Virus record (IMG/VR): IMGVR_UViG_3300033153_004695
Location: 1-42,632 of that record
Length of the DNA: 42,632 nucleotides
Direction: 5' to 3' (one strand)
Origin: a virus
The notes under the pieces were generated by a model. It had not been told where the DNA came from and made no database searches. It saw only the letters and a list, made by a program, of their open reading frames with translations. The first letter of the stretch is position 1, and the number at the start of each line of letters is the position of its first letter. The position numbers and the translations under genes are program-made. Shown here one piece after another: positions 3,001-42,628 of this stretch.

Positions 3001-6000
3001 TTAGATATTCTCGTCTGGTTTCCATAATTCTTGGTAAGTTTCTAGAGACATACGACCCACCCAAGATTGTGTCTTCTATATATCGTTTTACTGATTTGCG
3101 GGAGTTGCGTATATGCCGGCGCAAAGATTGTTCCATAGTAGCATCGTTAGTTATTGATGATATAGCAGGATCTTCATATGCATCATCATATATATAAAAT
3201 TCTGGTGGCAGAGGGATATTTCCATTTGGAACATCGGGCAACATAAGATCGTCATAACATTCACCAATACGATCAGTTAATGCTTCTATTATGTCTTCCC
3301 CTATGCTACCAAACCATTTACCAAAATCTTCAGCATGTGCATATTTGGTTACTTTATGGAATATTACATCCATACGATTGAGCCATTGTAAATATACTCT
3401 ATTAAAAGTATTCTCTGTATCTTGTTTATCAATCTCTTTGCCGCCTGTTGCTGCCGTACTATGTACTGCACCTACTCGTCCAGCAAATGGCTGCCCGTAA
3501 TTATAAGAAGTATTTTTGTTATCGCCTATTATATGCTGACCAGCATCCCATTCGGCATATAATTTTCTTACTTGTTCAGATACGTCTTCAATAGATGGAC
3601 TATTCTCATTAGCTACCTTACATGCATCGGCAGAATCGACTAAAAGTTCTGCTAGCCATCCAGGTATATCACTGCTAGGATTAGTTTTCCAATAACGACC
3701 ATGGCCACCTACCCAAGCATCAGTATGATATTTAAGTTTTCTTTCTTGCTCTGCATGTACACCACGATCAATAACATGTTGTGGGTTAGGAATAACTAAT
3801 TTTTTCTTCACTACTCGATCCCCAGTGAAGAAGCTTTCTTCTACTGTGTCAACATACCGTGATACTAGATGTCCCATCAATGCTTTAATGACACGTCTCT
3901 TTTGGTCAAATGACGTAATTATATTTCTATCAAGTTTCTCTTCAGAAAAATCTTGTGCAATAAAGTTTACTACTAACTGATGCTGATCCGCTCCAGTTGG
4001 AACTGGCGTTTCGCTAAAATCTGTAACTACAAAATTTTTAATGTCTAATAAAGATAATATAGTATTTCTTTCTTGTCCATTAGGATTATCCCATTCAAAT
4101 TCTAACGCACCTGCTTCAGGTATCAATCCCTGGAACTGCCTGGCGTTTTCTCTAGCACGAAAGATCATTTTCTTAATTCTATCAGCTGATATACGCCCAG
4201 ATTCTCCACCAAAAGTAAAGACTAGAGTTCCTGTTCTGTTGCCTGCACCAAGGAATTGCCATGTGTATGTGTCTTGGCTTAATAGTTTTTGTGGCACAAT
4301 ACGATGACCAAATGTCACAGAGATAGCCGAACATACAATATCTTTGCCATATTCTGGTATAAGCTGATCATTAGGATTGCTAGAAATATGATATTCTATA
4401 TTACTATAGAAAACATTACGTATCTTAAGATCGTCTATATAGTAATAAAGACCTTTGGTTCGTAATTCTTGTATCCATTTTCTTCGAGCCGATATACGCC
4501 GGCGATCTTCACCATCTCGTGGTTTATTAGCATCTCCAGCTTTTTGTTCTAAGTTAGCTAAAGCTTTTATAGTTCTGTCGTCTTTTTGTAATTCTCCTAA
4601 TGGTTTATTATTTAGATTTATATTTGTTTTAAGCCATAATACAGCTTTTCTGCCATATATAACTTTATTTTTAGAAGATTCTCCGCTGGCTGATGAATCT
4701 ACCCAAATTTGTTTTGTGCCTGATCTTACATCTATATGTATAAAAGGAACTGTTGAATGAGAATAAAAACCTTTTCCTGTTGCTGCAGTATTCATATGTA
4801 CGAATTTAAATAAATCTTTTTTAGATACTCCATCGACACTAATATCTAAAGCATTTCCTTTAGCATGTTGACTTTTGCCTTGTCCTCGTGGATCTCGATA
4901 GCCACTATAAATCTTAAGTCGTTTTCCTGGAAATTCTTGTGCAATTTTACTAAGTATAGAACCTAACTCAAGATTCAGGAGTAATGCTGCTGTCATGCTT
5001 CGACTTTTAGCTATATGAGAAAATTTTGTCATTCCGTGCATGGTACTTGGATCAACAGTGGCTGATTTTCCTGTATTTGCATTAATTACTTTCAGCATAG
5101 CAACCGAAGTGTTTTCATCCGAATTATCTGATAAAGTTTGTGCTACAGCATTTTCAGTAGCAGTTGTGCCAGTTTGTTCTGGAGTCGGTGCAGTCAAGGC
5201 ACTGTAAACACTAGAATAAGGAGCGAAGCTTCCGTCTTCCTCGGCGAAAAGATTAGCCAAAAGTCCTTTCCCTAATCTTTCGGCTTCTCCAGGAGGCGTA
5301 TGATGTTCAAAGGCACGAAGTTTAAATCCTATATAATCACTGTTTTCTTCGTTAACCTTTTCGGTAATTAGAGATAAGTAATCTGCGTAATACATCCATG
5401 CATCTGATGCAGACGGCATATTAACAGGCACGTTTGGATTCTCTAATGATAATGCTATCGCACCAGCTTTTAAATCTCGAGCCATTCTTTCTGCTTCATA
5501 ACCCATAGAATAAGCTGATGCTTCATATGATGTTAGATCTCCAAGATATAGTTCTTGGTCTATTGCATCAGCTTCAGGTTGATTGATCCATGGTAAATTA
5601 GTGTTGAACCAGAAATGATGTGAGAATGGCTTGTAGTTGAAATAGTGCAAAGTCATATCTAAAATGATTGCACCGACATGTTCTGGGTCACTACGAAGTG
5701 TACCGCTTTCAAGAATAAACATTGTGGTTACTACTGGATCAGTAATACCTAATGATTTTCGTACTTTACCACTATATATATATACGAGAGGATGGTGTTT
5801 AAGCTCAGCAATAAGTCGTTGTAGCTTTAGTGCCTGTGTATTTCCTGGCGGGAATGTAAGTGTTATGTTTACTCCAATATCTTGTATACCGCTACTTGTA
5901 ACAACAGGTGCTTTAGATCTAAGTGTTTCTGCCACCATCACATTGCCTTCTGAGTCCATTGCAATAGCGTTAGTAGGGATATCAGTCATTACTATATCGT

Positions 6001-6232
6001 TAATGACTATAAAGTCATCTGGGAATCCTCTAAATCCCCATTCCTCACGAAAGAATTCTTCTTGTGCTGATATTTGATTTTGGGCGATACCAGGAACTTC
6101 CGCTAAGCTCATCTCTTCCGCAAAACCACTAGAGTTTATATTATGAGGTACATCTTGGCCATGCTCACCAGGAAGAGATTGCTCTGAATCATATTGAAGA
6201 TCAGGCGGAAAATTGTAGTAGGGTTCTGTCAT
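1..6232 (-). CDS. Baseplate hub protein with M15 peptidase domain (partial, at least 2077 aa)
   Basis: An ATG at 6232, three bases after the previous stop, opens a frame that stays open to the left edge, so the C-terminus is missing. Residues 1-60 are hydrophilic. Residues 118-190 (DIGVNITLTFPPGN) and 630-765 look like tail beta domains. Residues 418-515 are an M15-type peptidase: SGYRDPRGQG, SQHAKGNALD with zinc ligands H456 and D463 (H-x6-D), and FIHIDVR with H499. A helical region follows, with a hydrophobic segment at 1287-1321 (LAGPAAATVALTAVAG). Residues 1400-1930 resemble a baseplate hub (VQIRLGYASNPDHLDTVFLG at 1498; YDVCFLNDSSINM at 1918). It likely cuts peptidoglycan during tail contraction. 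Confidence 0.8.
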   Translation of the reverse strand, partial: MTEPYYNFPPDLQYDSEQSLPGEHGQDVPHNINSSGFAEEMSLAEVPGIAQNQISAQEEFFREEWGFRGFPDDFIVINDIVMTDIPTNAIAMDSEGNVMVAETLRSKAPVVTSSGIQDIGVNITLTFPPGNTQALKLQRLIAELKHHPLVYIYSGKVRKSLGITDPVVTTMFILESGTLRSDPEHVGAIILDMTLHYFNYKPFSHHFWFNTNLPWINQPEADAIDQELYLGDLTSYEASAYSMGYEAERMARDLKAGAIALSLENPNVPVNMPSASDAWMYYADYLSLITEKVNEENSDYIGFKLRAFEHHTPPGEAERLGKGLLANLFAEEDGSFAPYSSVYSALTAPTPEQTGTTATENAVAQTLSDNSDENTSVAMLKVINANTGKSATVDPSTMHGMTKFSHIAKSRSMTAALLLNLELGSILSKIAQEFPGKRLKIYSGYRDPRGQGKSQHAKGNALDISVDGVSKKDLFKFVHMNTAATGKGFYSHSTVPFIHIDVRSGTKQIWVDSSASGESSKNKVIYGRKAVLWLKTNINLNNKPLGELQKDDRTIKALANLEQKAGDANKPRDGEDRRRISARRKWIQELRTKGLYYYIDDLKIRNVFYSNIEYHISSNPNDQLIPEYGKDIVCSAISVTFGHRIVPQKLLSQDTYTWQFLGAGNRTGTLVFTFGGESGRISADRIKKMIFRARENARQFQGLIPEAGALEFEWDNPNGQERNTILSLLDIKNFVVTDFSETPVPTGADQHQLVVNFIAQDFSEEKLDRNIITSFDQKRRVIKALMGHLVSRYVDTVEESFFTGDRVVKKKLVIPNPQHVIDRGVHAEQERKLKYHTDAWVGGHGRYWKTNPSSDIPGWLAELLVDSADACKVANENSPSIEDVSEQVRKLYAEWDAGQHIIGDNKNTSYNYGQPFAGRVGAVHSTAATGGKEIDKQDTENTFNRVYLQWLNRMDVIFHKVTKYAHAEDFGKWFGSIGEDIIEALTDRIGECYDDLMLPDVPNGNIPLPPEFYIYDDAYEDPAISSITNDATMEQSLRRHIRNSRKSVKRYIEDTILGGSYVSRNLPRIMETRREYLNNFAGETRDQGEFKFMSWGQRLAEGTKAWEPVFYRPHDDAYKDGNSKKWIDRISDGKSPEETRFEFMDNLISLSPYLRDGRGKMWNQPYNLSNNAELVETIYDDNWRKLSFGPNPNYRHADEVLEGNIPDTRGEIARNQIVKTQAELIAEKAEQQASEMTGDHTIMPDGSVAFGNNNAEMQSLYSDRFSAMLADGWRSATSLAASMFESHFGLVAVAGAILAGPAAATVALTAVAGSIVNLITGVVESKEERKKLEALQTEIGKILPDMDHTQAGKQFTAENEEATMAAMAKGIGFGTKAKDLSMRRAYPTFKIYFIEDDEQGSEIANGKLIRAFDDFYSYSAVQEIRVIRSRKVAADLAILRITNIGGKILRRRFGETSQWERDEKAKYGIEAEYETGIFADTEKENPFERMILQDGVKVQIRLGYASNPDHLDTVFLGSVVEISPSDDGKILEIVCQGFGAELEGVELGPLEDGPVFYSSQQVLSGSIIQDSIVNFGRRGNYNRFTPGEQRHSFTGGRGEGFLSNLTPQQLLNQWSDSRLYKHYFKYPFRNFPQDDNIFAPPPHVYASTWMQFYNNACTYRPLKQTPWQIFKEHELRHPGYVAMAVPYGHSPRMTMFFGSKSQHYWSRPPSGLELFLAENATEQIIRLQGMSAQKIADPGFAAQLKKLSAESPAITSAIINGVTTFSQQTGVSQELGKLFGRYKPFRNFHYFDSKHHIVKNNIRTSRDGTFNEVEVLYFKDENDINPESGILGLFGVGNDAEELSDNLQAMQRGEAGVLACKLDENIPEEYIRSYREEFPSCITEDMARRYIQGLFARLLRDCYKGDLCVLGEPTLKPYDVCFLNDSSINMTGPVEVEQVEHIFNRDFGYISIITPDLCVDINDYYSATVLDLAGSSLAYTFGLDDADTAISMAAMASPLGFLAWTGGVKFIKWTQEGVPVITTPLVFEGKPFMSVTLGQRRTSMIQALNGRWRQYWDDLESAWEKFDIAESFFDQSL

Positions 6233-9200: not shown

Positions 9201-10765
9201 TTAAAACGTTCATAGTCTATACCAGATATATCACCAGGCTTTAGCATGCTAGGATCTAAATACTTTGGTTTAGCATAGAAGGTGGCAAGTTGTGGTGCTG
9301 TATATGCTTCTGCTGCTGTGGCTGGTGCTCCGCCATAAAGAAGCGATTGGTATCCTGGACCTTGAATCTTACGATTAAGTCGACTATAGAATTCACCGAA
9401 TTGTCCACGGAATCTAGGAGCTGCTGCTTTGGCAGCTGCAGACGCACCGAATTCTTCACGTATAAATTGTCCAGGTCTTTGTTCTATGCCCATTAAACGA
9501 CCCATGGGGCCAAAAAGTTCTTCGGCAATATTCCTAGTAACGAAGGTACCCTTGGCTACTGTTTCAGGACTTCCCATTGGATACAATTGTCTCCCGCCAA
9601 CTAAAGATTCTTGAATTATTTTGCTTCTTAATCCTTCTGTCATTCTGCCGCCAGAATACACTGCTTCCATTAAGTTCATGCGAGCCTTAACTCTGCCACC
9701 AGCAGGGAGCATAGCTTCTGGCATTTTCCAAATTGCCATAGATTTATGAGCAGCATCTCTATCTCTAATAGCATTAATAATCTCATAATTAGCATCTATG
9801 ACAGCATTTTTGAGGCCGGTCTTAGTCTTTTGGATGCTCATAGCTTCTTCAAGCTTAGATACATATTCTTCTGTAAAGTTAGTTAAAGATCCTGCTTGAC
9901 CATAAGCTTTACGTGTCATATATTTAGCCGTTAAGTTTTCTCCACCATATGTAAGACCAGTAGAAGTAAGAGGTATATCAATAGCTTCTTTCCCTATCAT
10001 TCCTCTTAACATAGGAGTTGTAACTCCTTTGCCTTCTAATGTGTCTGCTACATCATATACACCTTTCCATTCAATCATACCTCCAGATTTCTGTGCTGCT
10101 GTTGTCAGACGAGATTGAATCCCTTCAGCTGTAGCACGAATATCTCCTGCAAGAGTTTCTATACGTCTAGGTTCTCTAGCAATAGTCGAGCCCATAAATA
10201 CACCTTCTGATGTACCTGCTCTTGCAAGTTCATGAAGTCTACTTTCTGTATAAAATCCGCCTTCACCTAAACCACTAATTCTACTTGTTAATAAACCAAC
10301 ATCTCCTTGAAGGGTATTGATAGATTGTTTGGCAGTTTCATAAGCATTACGTACAGAGGTTTGATTTAGTATTTGTTGATATGCACTATATGCTTCTGTA
10401 TGAGTGGCTTTACCTCCAGCTAATACAGACTCATAAGCAGCTTGAGCTATATCAGTACGGACATGTAGGCCACCTTTGATAGCAGATGAAAATCCACTTG
10501 CACTTTCTGTCAAATTACGAAGAATATTTTCTCCAACATCGCCAGTTAAAGCAGATTGATTCATTCTAGCTACATTGAATCGCCCAAGTGTTCTTAATTC
10601 TTCTGATACTTCAGCTGCCACATCACGCCTGCTACTGGCTAAGACTGCTCGAATAGCAGGATGAGCACGGTAAAGACCATAGCCTACACCACCAGTTACA
10701 GCTGCGGTGGCACCATGACCCCAGAAGCTTGAACGTTCATTAATGTTAAAAGGATCTCTTGCCAT
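6236..10765 (-). CDS. Putative virion single-chain RNA polymerase (1509 aa)
   Basis: This 1509-aa tail-module protein carries signatures of the two double-psi beta-barrels of cellular-type RNA polymerases. The beta'-like part has MWRHPTTGPESFQF (R1055, P1057, T1058; compare NRAPTLHRL of RpoC), then GGKRKKID (G1093-K1094) and GDFDKDMF with D1109, D1111, D1113 (compare ADFDGDQM), spaced as in RpoC. About 460 residues earlier are DVKFMGRA (K646) and VVSGKLVQRNRMALMTQQME (near 677-697), resembling the beta GDKFAGR and NPLGVPSRMNIGQ segments. A HLEEAAIGGKHG segment follows near 1217. Ends are hydrophobic (residues 17-42; GPALIGTAIAAGVMM near 1382). Glycine of DFDGD is Lys here. Gene order puts it between tape measure and hub, suggesting packaging and ejection. 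The alternative is an inactive relative. Confidence 0.62.
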   Translation of the reverse strand: MARDPFNINERSSFWGHGATAAVTGGVGYGLYRAHPAIRAVLASSRRDVAAEVSEELRTLGRFNVARMNQSALTGDVGENILRNLTESASGFSSAIKGGLHVRTDIAQAAYESVLAGGKATHTEAYSAYQQILNQTSVRNAYETAKQSINTLQGDVGLLTSRISGLGEGGFYTESRLHELARAGTSEGVFMGSTIAREPRRIETLAGDIRATAEGIQSRLTTAAQKSGGMIEWKGVYDVADTLEGKGVTTPMLRGMIGKEAIDIPLTSTGLTYGGENLTAKYMTRKAYGQAGSLTNFTEEYVSKLEEAMSIQKTKTGLKNAVIDANYEIINAIRDRDAAHKSMAIWKMPEAMLPAGGRVKARMNLMEAVYSGGRMTEGLRSKIIQESLVGGRQLYPMGSPETVAKGTFVTRNIAEELFGPMGRLMGIEQRPGQFIREEFGASAAAKAAAPRFRGQFGEFYSRLNRKIQGPGYQSLLYGGAPATAAEAYTAPQLATFYAKPKYLDPSMLKPGDISGIDYERFKKLSSVMGAEEAVISRKAAPFMEYERVVQKKLTLNEGFRTNQQILDALKGKRVGELAKLPSIGRGGFLGVAAATGREVWAEGAGGAEARVIGAQLTGDNAATVFMKETHKMSDDKWWKFFSEDVKFMGRATSETRMRDVLAAAGMETQAGMQEIEAVVSGKLVQRNRMALMTQQMEALSMLASGKIDKRKLTLRKRVLAKEFMEDPASFLKVSRLQGKHIADSEFQIQKNMVALTKKFGFTEREIGLTFGLLDTGTASRLGIADAVAGAPGVIGLSKMRLGDFAFEGGAGGLASFEQTGFRMLAMKGEEGKRFAAEMATRLRGKDELIPANRMMASILNERELADRMKQFATGGNVDERLLGQLSANQLVGDTGRYVKFGQPVKAFGGAKQIYIPGMTEAETLMGYTITDKGMRIPSPVAGGLEDLRGQMARGAAQEEIEESAKRLRANIVQQTELQATAKGKVAGSRFLTGIRQTAAETAEDMGAMKISPHTGERMFDELIERAKDNEQRIFLSEQKRKLVNDGQELIGGMWRHPTTGPESFQFVRYKVDRNLTDEMISAPYQMGEIALGGKRKKIDISAMVGMKGDFDKDMFAIAAISDRDTTKRLAGKMQKEIQEGYTGYLFNHYAMKDLIDVRKGNIDSLLQASHQEALEQGAKNLTTAKVATPQVNVALQKLKLGLQYNAPEKYRPMAELFWHLEEAAIGGKHGAQQTKMYQEIASAVKQKDVSGMESVIKQLMGEKDAVISGQITGPAGGLESRSLKYSPRAWAEQAIQSASAAGEDVEIAYKAAQSAKGKVPDDFSSLVEMYYKRRTGSLDVAQSAMHSQAYGMPGFTEKTNRILRQAQSKSRSLLGALKKAKGPALIGTAIAAGVMMSAPSASGALHQPQEGPASGRNLRPDDLGPPAGLGMNPPSLRIMQSPRVYDMSGIQTASRANIRMSMPDANNSSRDFMRHASTLARGGNVRVRTVDDRNALSPHRLANQIHERL

Positions 10766-13700
10766 TATCTAGCCCCTAAACGTTTATGAGCATCACGGAC
10801 AAGACCATCACGGGCGTCTGCGATCTCAATATCATATCTCTCATCCAATGGAGCAGCGATATGTCTTATACTTACTTTAGCATTAGAGTCCCCATGAAAT
10901 CCACCCATGGCTTTAGCATTAAAACGAGTTTGTGCTATCTCATCGAAGTTTGCTTGCATGCCCATTTGTTGAATCATTTCAGAACTAATATAAGGTTTTC
11001 TAGCAAGTGATCTTCGTCGTGCGCCCCATAAATCAAAGTCATGGTGATCCAATCCCATCATCTCAACATATTTAAGTTTGACATCATCCATATCAACTGA
11101 TGGATGCCATCCAAGCCAATCAGCACCAGGCAATGAGTGAGTAGAGAAATATTCTTCAGCTTTCTTATCTCGTATCCATTCGTCATATGGAATTTGTCCA
11201 CCAGTTTCGTCCATCCATTGCTGCTCTGAATCTTTAGTGATACCAAAGCCTTCAGATTGTCTCATCATCTGAGAGGTGACTAGAAGTTGTTCATCTTGTT
11301 TTGTTGCAATTCCTGCTTCTTTCTTAGCTCGAGATGATTCCTCTTCTTGTCTAATCCAGTTAGCGAGATACAATCTTTGTTCATTCTCTGGTATTAATTG
11401 GAAAATTTGTTGTCGTTCTTCAGGTGTTGGAGCTTGCACGAAGGTAGCAAAGAAGTCACGTTCTCTACGTGGTAAAGCTTTCATGGCACTAACTGGAGAA
11501 CCAAAGACATCTAAGCCAAATAAAGTTTTTTGCTGCTTGCTTTGCTCTTCCTCAACCATTTGCCAGTCATCTGATTGTCTTGCTACTCTTTCTGCTTGTT
11601 CAGATTTAACCCAAGATAGCATATCAAAGTATTCATTGATATTTCTACGTTGCCGAATTTGTTCAGGAATTTCGTTAAAACCAATCTTGTATAATGCCAT
11701 GTCTGCTGCTGGACGTATAAAGTTTTCAATAGGACGATCCCAGAATGCATTGCCGGTGCCAATAGCTTCAGTAGCTACATAGTCTTCAATGGCAGAACGT
11801 TGTCTAATAAGTTTTGCTGCTGGTGATATTGGAGTTAGCATCTCAATAGGAGTCTCTATGCCATGTAGAAGAGACTCGGAAAATCTGCCTGCAAGTTGTT
11901 CTCCATCCGTAAATCTTAGTTGTTCAAACTCATCTCTGAGTTCTTTAGCATCTGCCAGATCTTTATTGGCCATTACCTGACCATAGTCAGTATCGCCCAA
12001 CATAGCTACAGCTTTCATTCTGCTATAATTTTTACCAATATCGAATCTACGTGATTCCATTGCAGGCATTTGGATCGTCAGCTTCTTGCCCTCTAGATTA
12101 TCTCTAGCAAATTCCATAGCTTGGCCCATATTCTTTATGGCACCCATACCTTGAAGCTCAATTACTGTATCTCCAAATTCTGCTGCTTTTATCCTTCTTG
12201 GATCCATTACCTCTGTTACAGTTATATCTTGTGCCTGTAATAATTCAGGACGGAATCGATATTCTGTAATCTTTCTACGTGTTTTCTTTGATCTTACTTG
12301 TTCTTCTGTAGTGCGAACAATAGATTGTTCATAGTCTGACAAGTAGTTTCTATTCCTTTTAGCTTTAGCTAATGTTTGCTTGTACTCATCACTCCACATT
12401 GCGACATCGCCAAGAATCTTCAATCTATGTACTAATGGATATTCTTCAGACTTCAAACCTGCAACTTCTGGATGAAATGCCGCATATCCCTCACCTGGAA
12501 GGCGTATTTCAGCTTCTTTGATCTTCTGGAATGGATTACCATGCTGCAAATCCAGGAAATAGTCCTGAGGCATCCAGGAAGGCATTGTGTTGGCCAGAGG
12601 GTTGTAAGTATCAAGGTAGCTTCGTGTATGTGGAATAAAGCGTCTGACGGGCTCTGAGGCACCTAGAGCGCCTCCTACATTAAGATGACTCCATAACCAA
12701 TACTCTGAACCTAGTTCTTTACCCATTACTCCTATGGTTTGTAGGTTCTGAAATAGCTCTTCTCGTCCAGTAACAGCTTTCTCTATAGCTCCTTCAGCAA
12801 ATCCAACTAAACCTACTGCTTCTCGTCTACGATACATTAGCTCATTGAACAGCTGAGTACCTTCTCCTGGTCCAACTGGAGCGCCAGGTCCAAGTCCACC
12901 GAGTTCATAGGCTGGTTCTGTTTCTCCACGTACATCAGGTAAGTGGCGATATTCGCCACCTCCAGCCATCCACTCTTCAGGTCTAACCAATTTTCTTGGT
13001 TTCACCATTTTGCCAAAGGTAGCTGCTATTAGAGGGCCAAAGAATGGTATATCTTCTCCATAGGTACCAGTTAATGGAGCAGGACGTTCATACTGATACT
13101 TGCTTTCATAATGATACTTCCATTCGTCATCACCATATAAAGCTTTTAATGGATGTAGAAGAGGGTCATGCTCCCAGCGTTCTTCTTCAGAACCCCACAT
13201 ACCCTTTTGATATGCTCTAGTCTTAAGACGATGCAAGAAATGTGGACGATAGTATTCAACTCTGCCACCTTCATAAGGACTTGATCGGCCAAATTCCCAC
13301 CATCTACCCTTTCTGACTGCTACATCTTGTTCACCTGAATAGATAGCTTGAAGTTCTTCGGGTGTTTCTGTAGTACCTAAAAGGTTTATACCTGGCATAG
13401 CGGCTCCAAAATTACCAGATAGCAGGCTAACGCCAGTAGATGCGATTCCCCAGGCAGCTATACCACCAAGGAAACCAAGAGCCATAGGACTTTTAATTTT
13501 TGAGATTGCTGACATACCAGGAACCTTAGCAATCTTCTTACCCATTCTAGAACCCCAGAATTTCTGTCCAAATTGTTCTTTTCTAGTTTCTCTTAAACGC
13601 TCAAAGATATCACTTGCCATTCCACCTTTGAGGATCTTTTCAGAAATACCTGCTTTTAGCAAGCCGCCGTATTGTGCAAAGCCAGCACCCATCATACCTA

Positions 13701-14937
13701 CTCCACCAAAACCTAGAGCAGTTTTAAGGGAAATTAGACCTGGAGATACTTGTTCTTGTCGTTTCAGTGATTCAGTAAGACCTGTTGCTTCAGATATCTT
13801 TGCTCGAGCAATATTAAGATCTGCAAATGCAGAAGCTACTCCATAGAATAAACCTTCATCGAATCTAGGTGCAAGAGATGTATACAAGCCAGCAGCGGCT
13901 CCAATAGCAAGACCAGCTGGAGAGAATCTGCGTCCGGCTCCCTTAAATAGGAATGCACCGGCTGTAGCTCCACCCATGGCACCGAGTGCTGTGGCCCAAG
14001 GACTACCTTCTGATCTCATGTAGTCATAGTATTCTAGACCTTTCCATATACCTCCAGCAATAATAGCCTTCTTGGTAAAGCGGCCAGCCATTTGTAATGC
14101 TGATCCAGGCTTCACAGCCATGCTACGAATTACAGGAATCTTATTTAATATATCTCCAATTACAGGTAATTCTAATGGTTTAGAAAGCAGAGTGTTCAAT
14201 CGGCCGGCTGTAGATGCAGCTTTAGCTCTCATGAGTTGCCCTAATACTTCTGTTTTAGCAACTCTTTTTGTCATCTTTTCACTAAGAGCTATATCTTTAC
14301 CAAATATTCGTACTTTCTCACGGAATTTTGCACCCAGTATCAAATCACGTCGTCGTGCATGTGGTAGCATTGCATCTACCCATTCTTGATATGTTGCAGG
14401 TGGCCTAGTTGCCATATATTCTGATTTTAATAATGCTTCATTAAGAGATTGTTGTGTGCCTAGAGTAGTACCAGTAATACGAGCAAAGTAATCAGCAATA
14501 CCGGCACCCTTTTGTGTGCCAGCTTTAATACGTAATCCTACACCAACAGCTCTGCCACCAGTAGTAATATCACCGAAGATAACGCCCTTGCGGGCCATAT
14601 TTATATCTTCTATACTTGAACCGAATGTATTCCGTAAGAATTCTGAATACTTACCGCCCATCGCAAATTGTTCAGCAGGAACAGATAGTTTATTCCAGCT
14701 CTCAAGAGGAGAGAGAAATTCAGATATACGGAAGGTTCTAAGGATAGCACCTGGGAAAGCAGTTTCAGCAGCACGAACACCCTGAAGATAAGTGTCCCAT
14801 AGACGACCAGATTTAGTTGGTATAAATCCTGTAGTCGCTATTCCAGCACCAACAAAACCTAATCGAGCTAAAGCTGATGGCTCTTCGCCCAATTGTTTAG
14901 GCTGTGGGCCTTGAGCTGTAATATATGGTAGTGTCAC
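10765..14937 (-). CDS. Giant tail protein at the tape-measure position (~1390 aa)
   Basis: The gene follows the chaperones, where the tape measure protein is expected. I prefer the GTG at 14937, with AGGTGG five bases upstream; a GTG at 14946 is in frame but has no good site. Several Gly/Ala hydrophobic segments lie near residues 30-42, 320-360, 409-430, 485-510 (SPMALGFLGGIAAWGIASTG) and 630-648. A conserved-looking aromatic block follows (SHLNVGGALGASEPVRRFIP; NTMPSWMPQDYFLDLQHGNP). Residues about 900-985 (VTVTEVMDPRR, FGDTVIELQGMG, GKKLTIQMP) may adopt an SNase-like OB fold, without clear catalytic residues. It is unusually rich in separate domains for a tape measure and may be ejected. 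The stop overlaps the next start (TAATG). Confidence 0.72.
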   Translation of the reverse strand: MTLPYITAQGPQPKQLGEEPSALARLGFVGAGIATTGFIPTKSGRLWDTYLQGVRAAETAFPGAILRTFRISEFLSPLESWNKLSVPAEQFAMGGKYSEFLRNTFGSSIEDINMARKGVIFGDITTGGRAVGVGLRIKAGTQKGAGIADYFARITGTTLGTQQSLNEALLKSEYMATRPPATYQEWVDAMLPHARRRDLILGAKFREKVRIFGKDIALSEKMTKRVAKTEVLGQLMRAKAASTAGRLNTLLSKPLELPVIGDILNKIPVIRSMAVKPGSALQMAGRFTKKAIIAGGIWKGLEYYDYMRSEGSPWATALGAMGGATAGAFLFKGAGRRFSPAGLAIGAAAGLYTSLAPRFDEGLFYGVASAFADLNIARAKISEATGLTESLKRQEQVSPGLISLKTALGFGGVGMMGAGFAQYGGLLKAGISEKILKGGMASDIFERLRETRKEQFGQKFWGSRMGKKIAKVPGMSAISKIKSPMALGFLGGIAAWGIASTGVSLLSGNFGAAMPGINLLGTTETPEELQAIYSGEQDVAVRKGRWWEFGRSSPYEGGRVEYYRPHFLHRLKTRAYQKGMWGSEEERWEHDPLLHPLKALYGDDEWKYHYESKYQYERPAPLTGTYGEDIPFFGPLIAATFGKMVKPRKLVRPEEWMAGGGEYRHLPDVRGETEPAYELGGLGPGAPVGPGEGTQLFNELMYRRREAVGLVGFAEGAIEKAVTGREELFQNLQTIGVMGKELGSEYWLWSHLNVGGALGASEPVRRFIPHTRSYLDTYNPLANTMPSWMPQDYFLDLQHGNPFQKIKEAEIRLPGEGYAAFHPEVAGLKSEEYPLVHRLKILGDVAMWSDEYKQTLAKAKRNRNYLSDYEQSIVRTTEEQVRSKKTRRKITEYRFRPELLQAQDITVTEVMDPRRIKAAEFGDTVIELQGMGAIKNMGQAMEFARDNLEGKKLTIQMPAMESRRFDIGKNYSRMKAVAMLGDTDYGQVMANKDLADAKELRDEFEQLRFTDGEQLAGRFSESLLHGIETPIEMLTPISPAAKLIRQRSAIEDYVATEAIGTGNAFWDRPIENFIRPAADMALYKIGFNEIPEQIRQRRNINEYFDMLSWVKSEQAERVARQSDDWQMVEEEQSKQQKTLFGLDVFGSPVSAMKALPRRERDFFATFVQAPTPEERQQIFQLIPENEQRLYLANWIRQEEESSRAKKEAGIATKQDEQLLVTSQMMRQSEGFGITKDSEQQWMDETGGQIPYDEWIRDKKAEEYFSTHSLPGADWLGWHPSVDMDDVKLKYVEMMGLDHHDFDLWGARRRSLARKPYISSEMIQQMGMQANFDEIAQTRFNAKAMGGFHGDSNAKVSIRHIAAPLDERYDIEIADARDGLVRDAHKRLGAR

Positions 14938-14955
14938 TAGCGCCACCTGCTTTAA

Positions 14956-35370: not shown

Positions 35371-37311
35371 CTAGAATGTGGTACGTGAAGGTCTGTGTCT
35401 TGATAAGTTACCGCGAGAACGCCTTCGTTGCAAGTATTGAAGCATACGTTCTGGCTCTTGGTCGCTTTCCCAGCCTGCTCTATTAGTTTTTGTAACATTT
35501 GCCATATGATCCACTCTTGCAGGCATTACACCGAATACTTTACTTTTGTCCAATGCTTCCTCGAGTCTTCTTTCTGCTGGACCGTGCGAATCATTCTTAG
35601 CAATCTGTGCATCTCTATTATCTAATGAATCTTTTCTAGTTCGCGGATCAGGGACTGCACCAACAGATGTTACCACTTTTATAGTATGTAAGTCATCAAA
35701 CTCTAAATGGAATGCAACAATTGCTAAATTCAATGCATCTAATCTATGGTCTTTGACCTTAGGATCTTCTATTCCATATACCGGAGTTTTTGATGGCGTA
35801 TAACGTTCAATAATATAATTTCTAAGCTGATTCTCTAAAACTCTATCTGCTGATGATATAGATATCCGTCCTTGCTCAAACATACGTACAGAAGCATTAA
35901 CCATAAATGGTTTGGCCGGTGAACGTATTTCTTCACCAGTTACAGGATCTTTCGTCGTTAAAGAGCTACCAGCATTATATTTTCTAAGAATATCTAATAG
36001 CCTAGCAGTATCTAGGTCTCCACCTTTATATCTTTGCTCATAAGCAGTTTTTCTAAGAAGTTCATAGTTAGTGCTACCATTGCCAGCATCAATATAAACA
36101 AATGCTGGTTTCCACTTCTTATTCATATCTAGAAGTGTCTGAACACCTGTAAGCTGAGTAAATTCAGATTTCTGGACATGAAGAGTCTCTACAATCTGAA
36201 ACATACCTGTAAGCATATTATAACCTAAAACTACAATCTCAGTACCATATTTTTCATTCCAGTCAGTACCAATACAGTATTTCCAAGCTGGAGAATAATG
36301 ATGACTATCATAACTATAATTCTGAAGTGCTCTATCAATATAAGATGGCTTGTATACGCCGGCTTCTGTAGATCCCCACTCTGCTAAATACTCATGTGTC
36401 CAATCTTCTTCAGTGAAAGAAGAACGTTCCATTTCAACATTCTTCCAGTGAGCCAATACTTTGTAATTATGATGAAATTCTGTGTAGTACGGGTTGTTAG
36501 AACAAAAGTTATAATATGGTGTTTTGAATCCAGATGGAGTAGAGAATCCGATTAATGCAGTATTAGGATTGGTCTGTAAGATAGGAATAACTGCACCAGT
36601 GATTGCTCTTTCATCAATATAGTCCATCTCTTCCATATAAAGCTTGTCAGCATCTTGACCACGAATACCAATACCTTCACCCTTGCCTTTGGTACCAGCA
36701 GCGAATCCTCTAAGTCTTGAGCCATTAGATAGCTCAATAGCATAATATGGCGCAGAGACATCTCTGATGACCATACTAGACAGTTCAGGATTGCTATGGA
36801 TAAAACCACGAACACGGTTAACTATTTCTTCTGTATGTGTTTTTTGAGGTCCGGCGACCACAATTTTAAGATTAGGCTCTGTAAACAAATAGTAGCATAT
36901 CTCTACACATACAAGATCAGTCTTTCCTGTTCTACGTGCAATACGTAACATTTTACGACGTGAAGAACACCTTAAAACCTCTGCTTGATACCAACGAGCT
37001 ATCCAAGGGAGTCCAGTTGGAAGCTTAAGATATTTAGCTGCCCAAGTGACGATATCTACTGTCGCTACCATCTCGTCCCAAACATCATCATCAACAGTGG
37101 CTTTTAGATCAGGATTGACAGGTTCTTTTGGAATACCAGTACAAGGAACAAGAAAGCGTCCTTCAGTAGGTTTACCTAACTTATCTACATGTTTTTCATA
37201 TTTTTTAAGCTGCTTACGGACACAGGTATGGCATTGTTCTGTAACAAGATCCAAATCGAAAGGAAGGTTAAGACCTCTTAAATCTGCCAATGTGTCAACT
37301 GTATCATTCAT
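35371..37311 (-). CDS. terL: Terminase large subunit
   Basis: This 646-aa ATPase-nuclease packages DNA into the prohead. Walker A is ARRTGKT (125-131), the following strand is VVAGPQKT, Walker B is LYMEEMD (224-230) with the catalytic Glu pair, and the coupling motif is GFSTPSG (255-261). The C-terminal RNase H-like nuclease is marked by GTDW (D350), VYIDAGNG (D408) and KDHRLDALNLA (D521/D525). An N-terminal addition holds C27, C30 and C57, possibly a metal knuckle. The length is normal to slightly long for a large terminase. The gene sits just upstream of three small proteins and the portal region, the usual order of a head module. Confidence 0.95.
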   Translation of the reverse strand: MNDTVDTLADLRGLNLPFDLDLVTEQCHTCVRKQLKKYEKHVDKLGKPTEGRFLVPCTGIPKEPVNPDLKATVDDDVWDEMVATVDIVTWAAKYLKLPTGLPWIARWYQAEVLRCSSRRKMLRIARRTGKTDLVCVEICYYLFTEPNLKIVVAGPQKTHTEEIVNRVRGFIHSNPELSSMVIRDVSAPYYAIELSNGSRLRGFAAGTKGKGEGIGIRGQDADKLYMEEMDYIDERAITGAVIPILQTNPNTALIGFSTPSGFKTPYYNFCSNNPYYTEFHHNYKVLAHWKNVEMERSSFTEEDWTHEYLAEWGSTEAGVYKPSYIDRALQNYSYDSHHYSPAWKYCIGTDWNEKYGTEIVVLGYNMLTGMFQIVETLHVQKSEFTQLTGVQTLLDMNKKWKPAFVYIDAGNGSTNYELLRKTAYEQRYKGGDLDTARLLDILRKYNAGSSLTTKDPVTGEEIRSPAKPFMVNASVRMFEQGRISISSADRVLENQLRNYIIERYTPSKTPVYGIEDPKVKDHRLDALNLAIVAFHLEFDDLHTIKVVTSVGAVPDPRTRKDSLDNRDAQIAKNDSHGPAERRLEEALDKSKVFGVMPARVDHMANVTKTNRAGWESDQEPERMLQYLQRRRSRGNLSRHRPSRTTF

Positions 37312-37317
37312 ATTTAT

Positions 37318-38091
37318 TTACCTGTGGACAAATACTGCTTCCTGGCCCATAAGAGAACGAGACGACATGGCTCCTTTATTCATTAGAGCTAATGACTGTT
37401 GTCTCATCGTATGTGCTCGTTTTGTTTGAAATGCTGCAGTATTTTGTCCCCAATTTAATCCTCGTCGAGAACGTTCTGTTGCAACTATGCGGTCAGGAAT
37501 TCTTGTAAGAGCATCAGTAACAGCTTCGCCAGAAGCTGCGCCCACTAAGCCACCGGCAATATAACCGATTCCAGCACCAATTGCTGTACCTATTCCTGTA
37601 GGTATCAAACTACCTATCGCTGCACCAATTCCCATTCCTGCTTTAGCACCTACTGCCCATCCACCGAAACCACCAAGACCCGAAGTGACAGCCCTAGCTC
37701 TTTCTTCTATAGGACCATCTTCCATCATTCCTGGCATTAGAACTAACGCTCCTCCAAGAGCCATTCCTCCAAGTCCGCCGAATCCACCCCTCATCATACT
37801 TCTGGGAGCACCTTTCTCAACTGCAGATAAAGCCTTCTTAATGCCTGGATCTTGTTGATGTAGACTTTGAAGTCTTCTGAGTCTTGAGATGTATTTATTG
37901 CTGCCTTCTGGACTTCTTCGCCGCCAAGGACTAATTAGCATTTCTTTTCGACTTGGTGCAAATACAGTTGCTGCCATTCCTCCTCGAGCATAGCTTTTGG
38001 CAAATTGCTGCCTGCCCCATATATGTGATTTCCACATTGAGCGCTGGAGAAATGATGCATTTTGATTAGGGTTGTTTGCGAACCAATCCAT
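37318..38091 (-). CDS. Glycine-zipper membrane-active protein (257 aa)
   Basis: The N-terminal 100 residues are basic and aromatic (for example a WRRR run near residue 56). Two hydrophobic blocks follow: residues 101-120 (GGFGGLGGMALGGALVLMP) and 138-190, the latter with regular GxxxG spacing (GMGIGAAIGSLIPTGIGTA). The tail is basic and hydrophilic. This pattern fits a protein that forms helical hairpins in a membrane, as in virion proteins that help DNA cross the host envelope. Its start overlaps the stop of the preceding Gly/Ala-rich gene (TAATG), and the large terminase begins six bases after its stop. I do not recognise a named family; the membrane role is inference. Confidence 0.65.
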   Translation of the reverse strand: MDWFANNPNQNASFLQRSMWKSHIWGRQQFAKSYARGGMAATVFAPSRKEMLISPWRRRSPEGSNKYISRLRRLQSLHQQDPGIKKALSAVEKGAPRSMMRGGFGGLGGMALGGALVLMPGMMEDGPIEERARAVTSGLGGFGGWAVGAKAGMGIGAAIGSLIPTGIGTAIGAGIGYIAGGLVGAASGEAVTDALTRIPDRIVATERSRRGLNWGQNTAAFQTKRAHTMRQQSLALMNKGAMSSRSLMGQEAVFVHR

Positions 38092-38588
38092 TAAAATCCT
38101 CTATTAGAACCTAACATAGATGAGCCAATATAAGCACCTGAAGCAACACCAGCACCCATAAGTGCTCTGCCACCCCATTTGTTAACCGCTACAGAATTTC
38201 GGCTAACAAGACCACGAAGTCTATTCATGCCACGGCCAATTCCACCCATGCCAGCTTGTCCAAATCCTACTGCAGCATTTCCCATGCCACTATTAGATAA
38301 CAGACCAGACATAGCGCTCCTACCTCGCTGAACACCACGACGACCCGCACCCAAACCTCTTTGTGCCATACCAGCAACAGTTCTGCCACCTGCAAAACGA
38401 TTTGCTAGTCCTCCGCCGAAAGCTCCAATACCAGCGCCTGCAGCTGCTCCGCCTAAGAATCCACCCATATCTCCTGTATTAGCAAGTCCCATGGCACCAC
38501 CAGCTGCTCCACCTGCTACAGCTCTGCCTCCAGTACTGCCTAACATGCGTCCAGCCTTACCTAGCATGCTCATTCCAAAAAATCCCAT
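38091..38588 (-). CDS. Gly/Ala-rich glycine-zipper protein (165 aa)
   Basis: This small basic protein is dominated by glycine, alanine and methionine. Residues about 15-75 are a nearly uncharged G-x-x-x-G zipper stretch (for example GGAAAGAGIGAFGGGLA), followed by Arg/Gly-rich segments. Glycine zippers of this kind insert into or associate within membranes, and occur in phage internal or ejected proteins. A strong AGGAGGT lies seven bases before the ATG. It is followed by another glycine-zipper gene with a TAATG overlap, so the two are probably made together. No enzymatic motif is visible. A membrane-active or ejection role is inferred from composition only. Confidence 0.65.
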   Translation of the reverse strand: MGFFGMSMLGKAGRMLGSTGGRAVAGGAAGGAMGLANTGDMGGFLGGAAAGAGIGAFGGGLANRFAGGRTVAGMAQRGLGAGRRGVQRGRSAMSGLLSNSGMGNAAVGFGQAGMGGIGRGMNRLRGLVSRNSVAVNKWGGRALMGAGVASGAYIGSSMLGSNRGF

Positions 38589-38623: not shown

Positions 38624-40858
38624 TTATATTACTGTTGAGCGACTAGAAGCAAACTCTGCATGACCTTTAGTTGCTCTTGCAGAAGATCTAAGTCCAATAC
38701 CAACAGATTTTTTTGTTAATTTATTAAATCTATCATTACGCCTAATAGCTTCTCGCCTAGCTTTACCCTGAAGAGCTGTTGCTAAAGATGCAGACTGTTC
38801 TGGTTTCATGGTCTTGGCTGCCCATGAGGCTTGAAGAGTAGCTGCTTGTCCTATATCTTCTGCTTTTTGTATTCTTTTAGCAACTTTATTCATTACTGCA
38901 GTACCAGTTTCTTTAGTACCTCTCGCAGCCGATACAGCCTCTCCAAATGAGAATTCAAGACCTGACGACCCTGCAGGCGGATTATTAAAAGAAAACTCTA
39001 AACCAGAGCCTTTAAGTGGAGATGGAACTTTAGCAATTGATCTATTACCAGATGCAAGATGATTTGCAACATTATCGGCAACTTCAGACAATAGCTTATC
39101 TCTATCTGCCAATGTAGCAGCAGCTTCTTCTAAACCTTCTTCTGCTTGCCTAACAAACACTTTCTTTATTGATGAATCAGACTTTACTGCCAGTAATTGT
39201 TTTTCTAATACTCTAACCTCACCAGCTGCTTTCTCATAAAGATATATAGAGTTAACTGCATGTGTGGATGATCTACTAGTTTTAGCTACTCCTGCTCCAT
39301 GTCCTTTCACTCGAAGTATATCTGCTACCTCCGAAAACTCATGGAATCCTACAGGTCTACCAACAGATTCTTGAAGTCTTTCTTGAAGTATCTTAGCACC
39401 TTTAGTATATGTTGCAGCTTCTTCTGTCCCGCCGATACCGCCAGTCTTTTGAAATCTATTAGCAAGTCCCCAGTCAAGAGCTGCCACTTCTTCTTTCCCT
39501 GTTGCAGGATTGATTGCTCTAACGACATTTTTACCGTGCATATCAGTATGAGTAATACCTCTCTTATGGGCAGACTTCATGAAACTCATAAGATCAGTTA
39601 CTTCATCTGCATCAAGAGGTGCTTCCTGTATAGACCTACCAAGTTGGAATTGCTCCATAACAACAGATTCTTCATCTAGACCAAAGTCTCTGCCTCGACC
39701 ATATAGTGAAGGAGCACGTTCTTTACCTAAAGCCTTCATTGATTTAGCTTCAGTCCTAAAAGTCTCTGCTAATCTTTCTTCGTGGCGAATAATATCAGAC
39801 AGACCACTAGCTTCACTCTTGGTTCCACGCTTAACTGCAAATTCAAAATCATGCATCTTATCGCCAACACGCATCTTAGTTGCATATCCCCAGACTTCAC
39901 CCTGAATACCTTCTCCAAGCTTCTTCCCAGGTGTCTTCATCCCAGTTGCAATTGCTTCCTTAAAAGCTTTAGATTGAGTAAGTTGTTTAAATGCAACATC
40001 ATCAGCTGAATCTTTAAAGACTTCTTTGGCAATCTTCCTTAATGGATCCCATCTAGATGCGAATTCTTCTTTAAATTCAGTTAGTTGAGCACGAGTCTTT
40101 GCAGCAAAGCCAATATCGCCCATTGCAGGAAACTTAAGTAAATTCTCTTTCCCAGCGGCGAATGCACTTAATGAAGCTTCTGCTCTCTTTCTTGCAGGAG
40201 ATTTATACTTTGTATACTCATCATAGCTCTCTTCAGTTACAGTCTGCCTAAGACCCCTAAATACTTTGTCTGCCATATACCCAGAACCAAAATCAGAATG
40301 ATCTCTTAAAACATTAGCACCTAAACCCTCTGAACCTGGATGCAAACCTGGAATAGTATTATAAACTCTGTCATCACCAGAGAACATGTATCCTAATGCC
40401 AATGTGGCTGCAGCTCCGCCTAATAAAAGCCTTCTGTTCTTAATTATCTTACCTAAAATCCCGCCTGCCCTTTTTGTGGGGGCAGAACCCTTCCCAATGC
40501 CAGCTCGAGACCCACGCATGAAAGATGCATGCTCTGCCTGCTCCCTAGTCGCTAATGCAATGTCTGTACCCTGAATTCGTAACCTCTCGGCTTCCCTGTG
40601 TACTGACAATAGCCTCTGAGGATCCACTGGCTGCCCCGTAGCCCTCGCTGCCTTAAAACCTAGTAGTTCACCCTCAAGCTTCTGTAAAGGCTCTCCAAGG
40701 CGCACACGCTTGCTTTCAAGTATCTCTGGAATTAGTTTTTTGGAAGGATCGTAAGGGAATGGAGGAGGTTTTGCAACACGACCGGCTCTGATCTCTTTAG
40801 CATGCCACTCTAAATATTGTGCATTTAATAAGCGTTCTTCTTTGTAAGAGATTGCCAT
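38624..40858 (-). CDS. Virion-module protein with protein-kinase-like domain
   Basis: This 744-aa protein has three parts. Residues 1-140 are charged and helical. Residues 143-160 form a hydrophobic segment (LLLGGAAATLALGYMF), followed by a motif YNTIPGLHPGSEG and DFGSGY. Residues about 308-470 carry the protein-kinase signature in correct order: glycine loop GEGIQGEV (315-322), AVK lysine K343, helix-C glutamate E370, hinge VVMEQF (399-404), catalytic loop HTDMHGKNV with D439 and N444, and metal-binding D462-W-G (DFG variant). The C-terminal third is helical and contains two copies of SGLEFSF (618-624, 632-638). The AAAGGTGA site before the ATG supports the start. All key catalytic residues are present, so an active phosphotransferase is plausible. 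The target is unknown; position suggests a virion or assembly role. Confidence 0.75.
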   Translation of the reverse strand: MAISYKEERLLNAQYLEWHAKEIRAGRVAKPPPFPYDPSKKLIPEILESKRVRLGEPLQKLEGELLGFKAARATGQPVDPQRLLSVHREAERLRIQGTDIALATREQAEHASFMRGSRAGIGKGSAPTKRAGGILGKIIKNRRLLLGGAAATLALGYMFSGDDRVYNTIPGLHPGSEGLGANVLRDHSDFGSGYMADKVFRGLRQTVTEESYDEYTKYKSPARKRAEASLSAFAAGKENLLKFPAMGDIGFAAKTRAQLTEFKEEFASRWDPLRKIAKEVFKDSADDVAFKQLTQSKAFKEAIATGMKTPGKKLGEGIQGEVWGYATKMRVGDKMHDFEFAVKRGTKSEASGLSDIIRHEERLAETFRTEAKSMKALGKERAPSLYGRGRDFGLDEESVVMEQFQLGRSIQEAPLDADEVTDLMSFMKSAHKRGITHTDMHGKNVVRAINPATGKEEVAALDWGLANRFQKTGGIGGTEEAATYTKGAKILQERLQESVGRPVGFHEFSEVADILRVKGHGAGVAKTSRSSTHAVNSIYLYEKAAGEVRVLEKQLLAVKSDSSIKKVFVRQAEEGLEEAAATLADRDKLLSEVADNVANHLASGNRSIAKVPSPLKGSGLEFSFNNPPAGSSGLEFSFGEAVSAARGTKETGTAVMNKVAKRIQKAEDIGQAATLQASWAAKTMKPEQSASLATALQGKARREAIRRNDRFNKLTKKSVGIGLRSSARATKGHAEFASSRSTVI

Positions 40859-40872
40859 ACACTAATTCACCT

Positions 40873-41685
40873 TTATGTTGAATCTGGAGTTTCCCAATCA
40901 GTATCAACTATATCATTATTATCATCAGCAAGCTTCTCGGTGTCTTCCTTAATCCTATCAATTGATGGCCCAGTTGATTTAGTGCCTACTGCACCTAATG
41001 CAATCTTGAGCTTCGCAAAATGATCGCCAATACTTTCTTCGTTCCTCTGCTTTAATGCCTGAGCCCGCTTATACTTCTCTTTACGTGTTGCAGCTAAAGA
41101 CTCAAGAACAGTCTGTCGAATACGATGAGTCTTTTCCTTGATGTCAATAAGAGGATGTGCACTGGTATTCTCAATTACACTTTTCGCAGTAGTAGTTATG
41201 TCAACTACTGTAAGCTTCCAGGCATCTTCGTCAACTGAAAAGCCTATATTGGCCCTGTAATCAATTATATCGCATTCTATTAACTTATTCACAAGAACCA
41301 TCTCAGTTCTGCTCTCAGGATTGACCCCAAGATCCTCAACATAACTCTTCATCCAATTAATGACTAAACTGCTCTCAATTGGACACTGCTCTGCTAATGG
41401 CCAATTCTTCTCGTCATTGAATGGACATTGCTTAACTGGACATCTTGCACCGCCGCAAAGCATTGGAATTGCTGCAGAAGTACCTACTCTCATTCTCACA
41501 ATGTGATTGCGGAACTTTAATGCTTGCTTGGGTGTTAATACCTTTTCTAAATTGGCATTGTGTTCCGCCGGGAGGTTGAGGAAGCTAAAGAAGTCAGTTT
41601 CTGCCTCATTACCATGTTTGTCAATCTGAGTGCCGTCTAGCTTTAATAATGCTGCCCTCGGAGTCCCTGAACCTTTTCCACCCAT
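40873..41685 (-). CDS. Cys4-motif protein; candidate small terminase subunit
   Basis: This is a 270-aa soluble protein. Counted from the ATG at 41685, four cysteines lie at residues 77, 82, 87 and 101 (C-x4-C-x4-C-x13-C, within CGGARCPVKQCPF and EQCPIE), a likely metal or Fe-S site. The C-terminal third is basic and helical (LAATRKEKYKRAQALKQRN), then acidic. The open frame extends to a TTG at 41700, but the ATG is preferred: it forms a TAATG overlap with the ATPase stop and has GGGTGG upstream. Similar Cys4 proteins occur near terminases in large Gram-positive phages, as far as I recall, so a DNA-recognition or small-terminase role is possible. That is inference. Confidence 0.6.
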   Translation of the reverse strand: MGGKGSGTPRAALLKLDGTQIDKHGNEAETDFFSFLNLPAEHNANLEKVLTPKQALKFRNHIVRMRVGTSAAIPMLCGGARCPVKQCPFNDEKNWPLAEQCPIESSLVINWMKSYVEDLGVNPESRTEMVLVNKLIECDIIDYRANIGFSVDEDAWKLTVVDITTTAKSVIENTSAHPLIDIKEKTHRIRQTVLESLAATRKEKYKRAQALKQRNEESIGDHFAKLKIALGAVGTKSTGPSIDRIKEDTEKLADDNNDIVDTDWETPDST

Positions 41686-42227
41686 TATATTGCCACCCAA
41701 TTACCTTCTATTTCTGAATGCCAATCCTGAGGTCTATAGTCGCTTTTCCTTAAATTAGGATTATTATAATGATCTAGTAAACCTGCAGATATTTGATACT
41801 TGAACCATGGAGCAGTATCCCATAATACTTTTAGTGGATGAGGCTGTCTCGAATCATATTCAAAAGGAGAGAAAAGAAATACTACCTGACATCCTAACTC
41901 TTTTACCATCATCATTGCTTCATTAAACTGCTCAACTTTCACCTTGTATGGTTCTTCAACTATTATACAGTCAATATTATTTCTTCCGCGCAATCTATTT
42001 AAACTTCGGAATGTCATATTCTCTATCTTGTGTCCTACTCGTCTAATTAATTCTTCACTTAATGCTTTTTGGACTGTCAAATGGACAATATTTTTACCTA
42101 CTAAAGATTCTTTGATTAACATGCTTGCTAAATGTGTCTTGCCGGATCTTCTTGGAAAACAACACATTATATTGTGACCATTAGCTACTTGCATAATAAT
42201 TTGATCAAATAAACTATTCTTATCCAT
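41685..42227 (-). CDS. Small terminase-like P-loop ATPase
   Basis: This is a protein of about 180 aa with a Walker A at residues 24-31 (FPRRSGKT) and a Walker B near 85-93 (IDCIIVEEP, acidic pair E91/E92). The P-x-R-x-S-G-K-T type of P-loop, and a near-C-terminal DWHSEIEGNW segment like the DWTHEYLAEW segment of the large terminase in this window, suggest a terminase-type ATPase core. There is no room for an RNase H-like nuclease domain. I chose the ATG at 42227, which has AAAGGA 11 bases upstream, over an in-frame GTG at 42236 whose spacing is too short. Its stop overlaps the next start (TAATG). It could serve in packaging or as a helicase-like factor; an ATPase call is secure, the role is not. 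Confidence 0.72.
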   Translation of the reverse strand: MDKNSLFDQIIMQVANGHNIMCCFPRRSGKTHLASMLIKESLVGKNIVHLTVQKALSEELIRRVGHKIENMTFRSLNRLRGRNNIDCIIVEEPYKVKVEQFNEAMMMVKELGCQVVFLFSPFEYDSRQPHPLKVLWDTAPWFKYQISAGLLDHYNNPNLRKSDYRPQDWHSEIEGNWVAI

Positions 42228-42235
42228 ATTGTTCA

Positions 42236-42628
42236 CTATCCTTTAAACATTTCAAGTTGTTTAGGATCAGCTGATTCTTTTCTTGGAAGCGTCGGTCGAT
42301 AAGAGAAAGGTATTGCATTCTCTAAGTCTTTTGGATCGGCAAGGCCAACAACAAAAGATTCTGCATCAAAATGCCTTGCAAACAGATATTGTGGCATATC
42401 ATAGAAATCTCCATTACCCTCTACTGTTACCCATCCATTGTGGTTGTCAGCACTGATAACATTGTAGGCAATGTTCTTCTTGAAGACCTCGAGTAAATCC
42501 TTGATGCATACTGTTACCGCCCCTGAAGGAAGACGGAACTCACAAGTTGCATTGTTAGGATGCACTACCCACCAAGTCTCATCAGAAGACTTTGGATACT
42601 TTACTGGATCAATCTTAATTCTTTTCAT
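42236..42628 (-). CDS. Hypothetical protein (130 aa)
   Basis: This is a complete small soluble protein starting at an ATG four bases from the right edge, so its ribosome site is outside the window. I do not recognise a family. It is hydrophilic with no signal peptide or membrane segment, and has an aromatic-rich N-terminal part (W19, W20). Its TAG stop runs directly into the next gene, so the two are probably co-translated. Its place at the head of a block that leads to the terminase suggests a role in packaging or in regulating late genes, but nothing in the sequence shows this. Confidence 0.7.
   Translation of the reverse strand: MKRIKIDPVKYPKSSDETWWVVHPNNATCEFRLPSGAVTVCIKDLLEVFKKNIAYNVISADNHNGWVTVEGNGDFYDMPQYLFARHFDAESFVVGLADPKDLENAIPFSYRPTLPRKESADPKQLEMFKG

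Follow-up and report, generated by a model that had tools for sequence, protein, structure and literature searches.

Why does a phage gene that adjoins head genes encode what looks like a complete set of protein kinase motifs, and what could such a kinase do there? We addressed this question with a linear 42.6-kb IMG/VR record (the window, 42,632 nucleotides, is the whole stretch of DNA analyzed). The strand and length of the 744-aa open reading frame (ORF) were verified in the sequence, and an SD-like AGGTG lies just 5′ of its ATG (Table 1). Late genes, i.e., those for the terminase, portal, major head protein, and sheath, are found downstream on the same strand. The initial annotation had put the kinase gene two genes upstream of the terminase; it is in fact the third, because the genes for the 165-aa and 257-aa proteins intervene. 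These two Gly-rich, glycine-zipper hydrophobic proteins (37318 to 38588) keep their place between the 744-aa protein gene and the terminase in close relatives, and they may help with membrane passage.

Table 1. Features of the 744-aa protein and its gene neighborhood (window positions).
Feature	Position	Strand	Remarks
Probable tape-measure protein	10765..14946	-	Homologues in L049 and L058; lies between tail sheath and endolysin-type tail protein
Terminase large subunit	35371..37311	-	phrog_2, E=1.1e-27
257-aa glycine-zipper membrane-like protein	37318..38091	-	Conserved neighbor
165-aa Gly-rich hydrophobic protein	38091..38588	-	Conserved neighbor
744-aa protein	38624..40858	-	From the N-terminus: an alpha-helical part, a hydrophobic stretch, two spacers, the kinase domain, a helical region, and the conserved tail
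Conserved C-terminal tail, residues 701-742 (RNDRFNKLTKKSVGIGLRSSARATKGH...)	38633..38758	-	Common to 15 members
Kinase domain, residues about 275-529 (catalytic core 310-475)	39272..40036	-	Pfam, conservation, AlphaFold/Foldseek, PDB profile matches
Metal-binding DWG, residues 462-464	39467..39475	-	D462 and G464 31/31
Catalytic loop HTDMHGKN, residues 437-444 (D439, N444)	39527..39550	-	D439 31/31, N444 29/31
Helix-C glutamate E370, within TEAKS	39749..39751	-	31/31 homologues
ATP-binding lysine K343, within FAVK	39830..39832	-	30/31 homologues
Glycine loop GEGIQGEV, residues 315-322	39893..39916	-	G315 29/31, G317 30/31
Spacer copy 2, variant form, residues 236-274 (GKENLLKFPAMGDIGFAAKTRAQLTEFKEEFASRWDPLR)	40037..40153	-	Spacer HMM 28 bits
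Spacer copy 1, residues 162-198 (DDRVYNTIPGLHPGSEGLGANVLRDHSDFGSGYMADK)	40265..40375	-	Spacer HMM 46 bits
Mildly hydrophobic stretch, residues 144-162, immediately N-terminal of first spacer	40373..40429	-	Hydropathy 1.21; position recurs in relatives
275-aa conserved upstream neighbor, function unassigned	40873..41700	-	

Two further ORFs of the window deserve mention. A stand-alone P-loop protein of 183 aa (41685 to 42236, minus strand; CCFPRRSGKTHLA), encoded upstream of the real terminase, resembles the N-terminus of a terminase ATPase (phrog_2, E=5e-7); its homologues occur in L016 and L023, while L022 and L041 have comparable small terminase-like ORFs. At the opposite end (2 to 6232, minus strand), a very large tail protein (2,076 aa or more, its ORF running off the contig end) carries endolysin-type domains (phrog_20474, 1.4e-43).

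Finding the relatives of the kinase gene

A single-sequence Pfam search with the 744-aa protein gave a weak match to Pkinase (E=0.007), and single-protein searches found no relatives in the viral contigs and none by phage tblastn. Taken alone, this is not convincing. A search with the terminase, on the other hand, identified eight contigs with the same gene order as the source sequence, and in every one of them that reached far enough, the third gene upstream of the terminase encoded a protein with related features. Six aligned kinase domains then led to further contigs, and an alignment of a repeated spacer motif enlarged the family to 42 loci. In all, 39 distinct related proteins (44,018 residues) from IMG/VR phages were compared, and on every contig long enough to show the arrangement, the family gene precedes the terminase.

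Among cultured phages, both terminase and portal pointed only to distant relatives: Moorella MTATph1, Bacillus KLEB27-3, and Acinetobacter ME3. Phage tblastn with two long relatives as queries returned only ME3_11, which is encoded two genes upstream of the ME3 terminase and displays a DnaQ-like DTETTG motif and, close to its end, a hydrophobic stretch; it is the positional counterpart of the family gene product. Insertions of approximately 300 to 450 residues were also seen in conserved proteins of this lineage, namely the terminases of L007, L016, L020, L021, L024, L040, and L042, the portal of L002, and the L004 homologue of the 275-aa neighbor (40873 to 41700). These are probably inteins.

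A conserved kinase core with an abbreviated second lobe

Conservation was counted in an alignment of 31 related kinase domains with a mean column identity of 21%. The residues that the initial annotation had named proved to be the best conserved columns of this alignment, and the glycine loop, K343, E370, the hinge, HTDMHGKN, and DWG were all found in the order it gave, spanning about 150 residues. E370, D439, D462, and G464 do not vary, all but one domain retain K343, and M401-E402 of the hinge (VVMEQF, residues 399 to 404) are kept in 29 to 30 domains, whereas H437 of the HxD motif is His in 20 domains and Asn in 11. Judged from this pattern of conservation, the domain is an intact protein kinase catalytic core under strong constraint.

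The database matches of the relatives pointed to several kinase families. L041 passed the gathering score of Pfam Pkinase (9.7e-11), and L064 was the sole relative above the OspG_kinase cut-off, which the 744-aa protein itself did not reach. Others passed the cut-offs of ABC1 (e.g., L005, L015, L021 to L024, and L026) or APH. A profile of the kinase family matched 2,174 distinct PDB sequences at E≤1e-3 (best E=7.5e-16); the best 60 of these were all kinases, and the top matches were protein kinases (MAP3K2, EGFR, Rio2 in third place, and DAPK). Most of these top matches extended only from the glycine loop through DxG (profile positions 60-203 to 60-231).

An AlphaFold model of the kinase domain had a mean pLDDT of 82, exceeding 90 in the core, and presented an N-lobe with a short C-lobe core. 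High confidence is restricted to the N-lobe and the catalytic core, and the residues beyond DWG are helical with lower confidence. The 50 PDB matches listed by Foldseek were kinases or kinase-fold enzymes at a probability of 1.00, although with TM-scores of 0.5 or lower because the C-lobe is short or remodeled; those with the best target coverage included Rio1 and PRPK. The complete C-lobe of canonical eukaryotic-type kinases, with its APE motif and helices F to I, was not found in the domain, as the sequence match stops soon after DxG. Since the homologues keep K343, D439, and D462 and the model has a kinase fold, the domain withstood both objections foreseen in the initial annotation, i.e., a structure deviating from the two-lobed kinase fold or homologues lacking these residues, although its second lobe is abbreviated. 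Ordered motifs and predicted fold together confirmed its membership in the protein kinase-like superfamily.

Exchangeable cassettes between repeated spacers

The kinase is one exchangeable cassette in a gene whose place upstream of the terminase is fixed. The cassettes of the 39 proteins lie between copies of a spacer of about 37 aa (consensus KDDxYNTIEGLRHGGMAxxxRKxxTDFGSGW), of which a spacer HMM detected 109, and 30 of the 32 kinase matches directly follow a spacer. A kinase cassette was found in 28 proteins, an SNase cassette in 12 (11 backed by Pfam above the cut-off), a DnaQ-like exonuclease cassette in at least 11, a PD-(D/E)XK-like nuclease cassette in 6, a zincin-like peptidase cassette in 5, each with the HEGLH motif, and ART-like domains in 3; more than 20 further segments are unnamed. 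The names PD-(D/E)XK-like and HEGLH rest on motifs, because PDB profile searches with these two cassettes gave no useful match. Weak partial matches of cassette groups g4b and g4c across spacers were set aside as spacer carry-over. Even phages with terminases 68 to 73% identical to that of the source may still differ greatly in this cargo. This exchange of cassettes around a repeated spacer is more novel than the kinase itself.

The 744-aa protein is a short allele of the cargo family with a single recognized enzymatic cassette, the kinase. Its full-length AlphaFold model had a pLDDT of 58 and was poor outside the kinase. The N-terminal helical part is common only to L003, while the 42-residue C-terminal tail was present in all 15 members with a terminase identity of at least 47%, irrespective of their cassettes. 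A membrane-like segment had been proposed to precede the kinase; in the 744-aa protein it is weak, the maximum mean hydropathy being 1.21 at residue 144, but stronger segments recur in relatives, where they often terminate right before a spacer.

Within contigs of up to 198 kb, the spacer was restricted to the cargo gene, apart from homologues of the tape-measure protein. A scan of genome contigs for it returned only a 14-residue Geobacter match, which we judged to be due to chance. Identical spacer residues shared the same codon in only about 44% of cases between genomes and 33 to 58% within a protein, so the conserved entity is the spacer peptide and not the DNA. The exception is L009 with 85% codon identity; in this kinase-less member (L009:1-2556), a spacer was recently duplicated and a 'FHEA(T/A)ELRNS' cassette occurs twice. 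An odd spacer variant with an insert (GLHPGAGPKSRWTKNPDGSGGFDDFGS) was seen in L050 (7299 to 7421), with a weak match to Pfam Ntox37.

Tape-measure fusions and probable delivery to the host

The product of the probable tape-measure gene of the window had no PHROG match of its own, and its homologues provided a link to the cargo family. The N-terminus of the L058 homologue has spacers and a PD-(D/E)XK-like cassette (phmmer 9e-41 to L016) as well as a region resembling the exonuclease part that other members have at their N-terminus, and the L049 homologue has one spacer. The L058 protein additionally carries an intein and LAGLIDADG domains. Tape-measure proteins occupy the tail tube and exit at infection, and the fusion of spacers and nuclease cassettes to such a protein points to delivery into the host. 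The same direction is suggested by the location in a late structural block, by the motif and hydrophobic stretch of ME3_11, and by the precedent of injected multi-domain proteins with kinases (PMC5512222).

The initial annotation had offered two fates for the kinase. That it is packaged and ejected was favored by the genomic context, the swapping with nuclease and peptidase domains, and the tape-measure fusion, with ejection itself inferred from these; that it phosphorylates virion proteins gained no independent support. We consider it likely that the 744-aa protein represents one of the alleles of a polymorphic cargo protein, ejected with the DNA, in a myovirus lineage distantly related to ME3, KLEB27-3, and MTATph1. 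The cargo protein would be loaded into the particle via its spacer, hydrophobic, and C-tail elements, leave through the tail together with the DNA, and possibly be cleaved at or between the spacers. Inside the cell, the kinase would then phosphorylate host proteins as soon as infection begins, and the companion cassettes of other alleles would attack nucleic acids or proteins. Against this delivery model we weighed the single recognized cassette and the weak hydrophobic stretch of the 744-aa protein, the occurrence of the HEGLH peptidase in only 5 of 39 proteins, and a fold prediction that is reliable for no more than the N-lobe and catalytic core, with TM-scores not above 0.5.

DISCUSSION

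Several other explanations were weighed against host delivery. Because it sits within the head/packaging block beside conserved neighbors, the gene could encode an assembly enzyme that phosphorylates phage structural proteins such as these neighbors, the portal, or the scaffold, acting without delivery to the host. This seems quite improbable, since an assembly enzyme should be conserved, whereas about 11 of 39 alleles lack the kinase against a constant set of assembly genes, and the same slot can be occupied by nucleases and peptidases for which no role in assembly is evident. The substrate might instead be small, i.e., a metabolite, a signaling nucleotide, or a lipid phosphorylated by an APH-, UbiB/ABC1-, or sugar kinase-like enzyme. 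The several members above the ABC1 or APH cut-offs are consistent with this, as is the combination of DWG/DFG with HxDxxxxN, which is similar to those families, but the top PDB profile matches are protein kinases, and L041 and L064 pass Pkinase and OspG_kinase, respectively, making a small-molecule kinase unlikely.

That the domain is a catalytically dead kinase-like fold, retained as a binding or structural module, appears extremely improbable: despite the low overall similarity, the short C-lobe, and the change of the HRD His to Asn in 11 of 31 homologues, the K, E, D, N, and D positions are among the most conserved columns. As for the spacer, exchange of cassettes does take place between its copies, which would suit a DNA recombination site for cassette shuffling with no function as a peptide; with the low codon agreement noted above for all but L009, we regard this as very unlikely. 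Whether the spacer serves specifically as a signal for loading, translocation, or processing is for us an evenly balanced matter. If it does, the gene would be the phage analogue of polymorphic toxins, with the kinase among its commonest payloads.

The cargo family resembles the phage polyvalent proteins, which were described as late-encoded, multi-domain proteins predicted to be injected with the DNA, for which cassette-like recombination was suggested and some of whose kinases are truncated, lacking the C-terminal subdomain but keeping the active-site residues (Iyer et al. 2017, PMC5512222). The late virion-gene location, the mixture of kinase, ART, and metallopeptidase domains, and the reduced C-terminal part of the kinase are shared with them. 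The earlier view that a kinase is unexpected in a late structural block was therefore overstated, as injected polyvalent-protein kinases had been described in 2017. Several disparate enzymatic domains per polypeptide, as in polyvalent proteins, are also found in many members of the cargo family, though the 744-aa protein has one recognized domain.

There are differences as well. Unlike in the kinase clade of polyvalent proteins (Iyer et al. 2017), HTD is contiguous here, with no insert between His and Asp (H/NxD in the aligned homologues), and the 744-aa protein matched no polyvalent-protein family in Pfam at E≤1. The repeated 37-aa spacer and the fixed terminase-proximal gene were not found in the parts of PMC5512222 consulted, and the SNase, DnaQ-like, and PD-(D/E)XK-like nucleases extend the cargo beyond that described there for polyvalent proteins.

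Among other kinases, the OspG family of minimal bacterial effector kinases likewise has a kinase N-lobe and a short C-lobe, and L064 passes its profile, but the domain of the 744-aa protein has no OspG match and stands in a phage context. The compact core is also shared with the atypical RIO, Bud32 (PRPK), and UbiB-ABC1 kinases, with Rio1, PRPK, and Rio2 among the fold or profile matches; relative to RIO and ABC1, the match is confined to the stretch from the glycine loop to DFG and does not extend to family-wide features. T7 gp0.7 is a phage kinase, too, which modifies host proteins; it differs in being an early gene product with no cassettes, and there was no meaningful sequence match to it (phrog_15752, E=0.28, L007 only).

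Virion-packaged proteins delivered with the genome are known from phiKZ, i.e., its inner-body proteins and vRNAP (PMC13282480), and from T4, i.e., Alt (PMC5512222). These are separate proteins, whereas the cassettes here are linked by spacers. A 2026 review of jumbo phages (PMC13282480) mentions injected proteins, with the words 'kinase' and 'polyvalent' absent. Our literature search on virion kinases and spacer-linked cargo, in a library with few subscription papers, returned no direct match, and within that scope both the spacer-built cassette gene and the kinase subtype appear to be unreported.

If the delivery model is right, one terminase-adjacent gene position would hold a catalogue of enzymes for the first moments of infection that can be read via the spacer motif, possibly itself a signal for protein delivery from the phage particle into the bacterium. 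It would offer a direct route to new anti-host or anti-defense effectors, including the many unnamed cassettes, and, should the comparison with polymorphic toxins hold true, the gene would provide a delivery backbone that accepts any effector enzyme.
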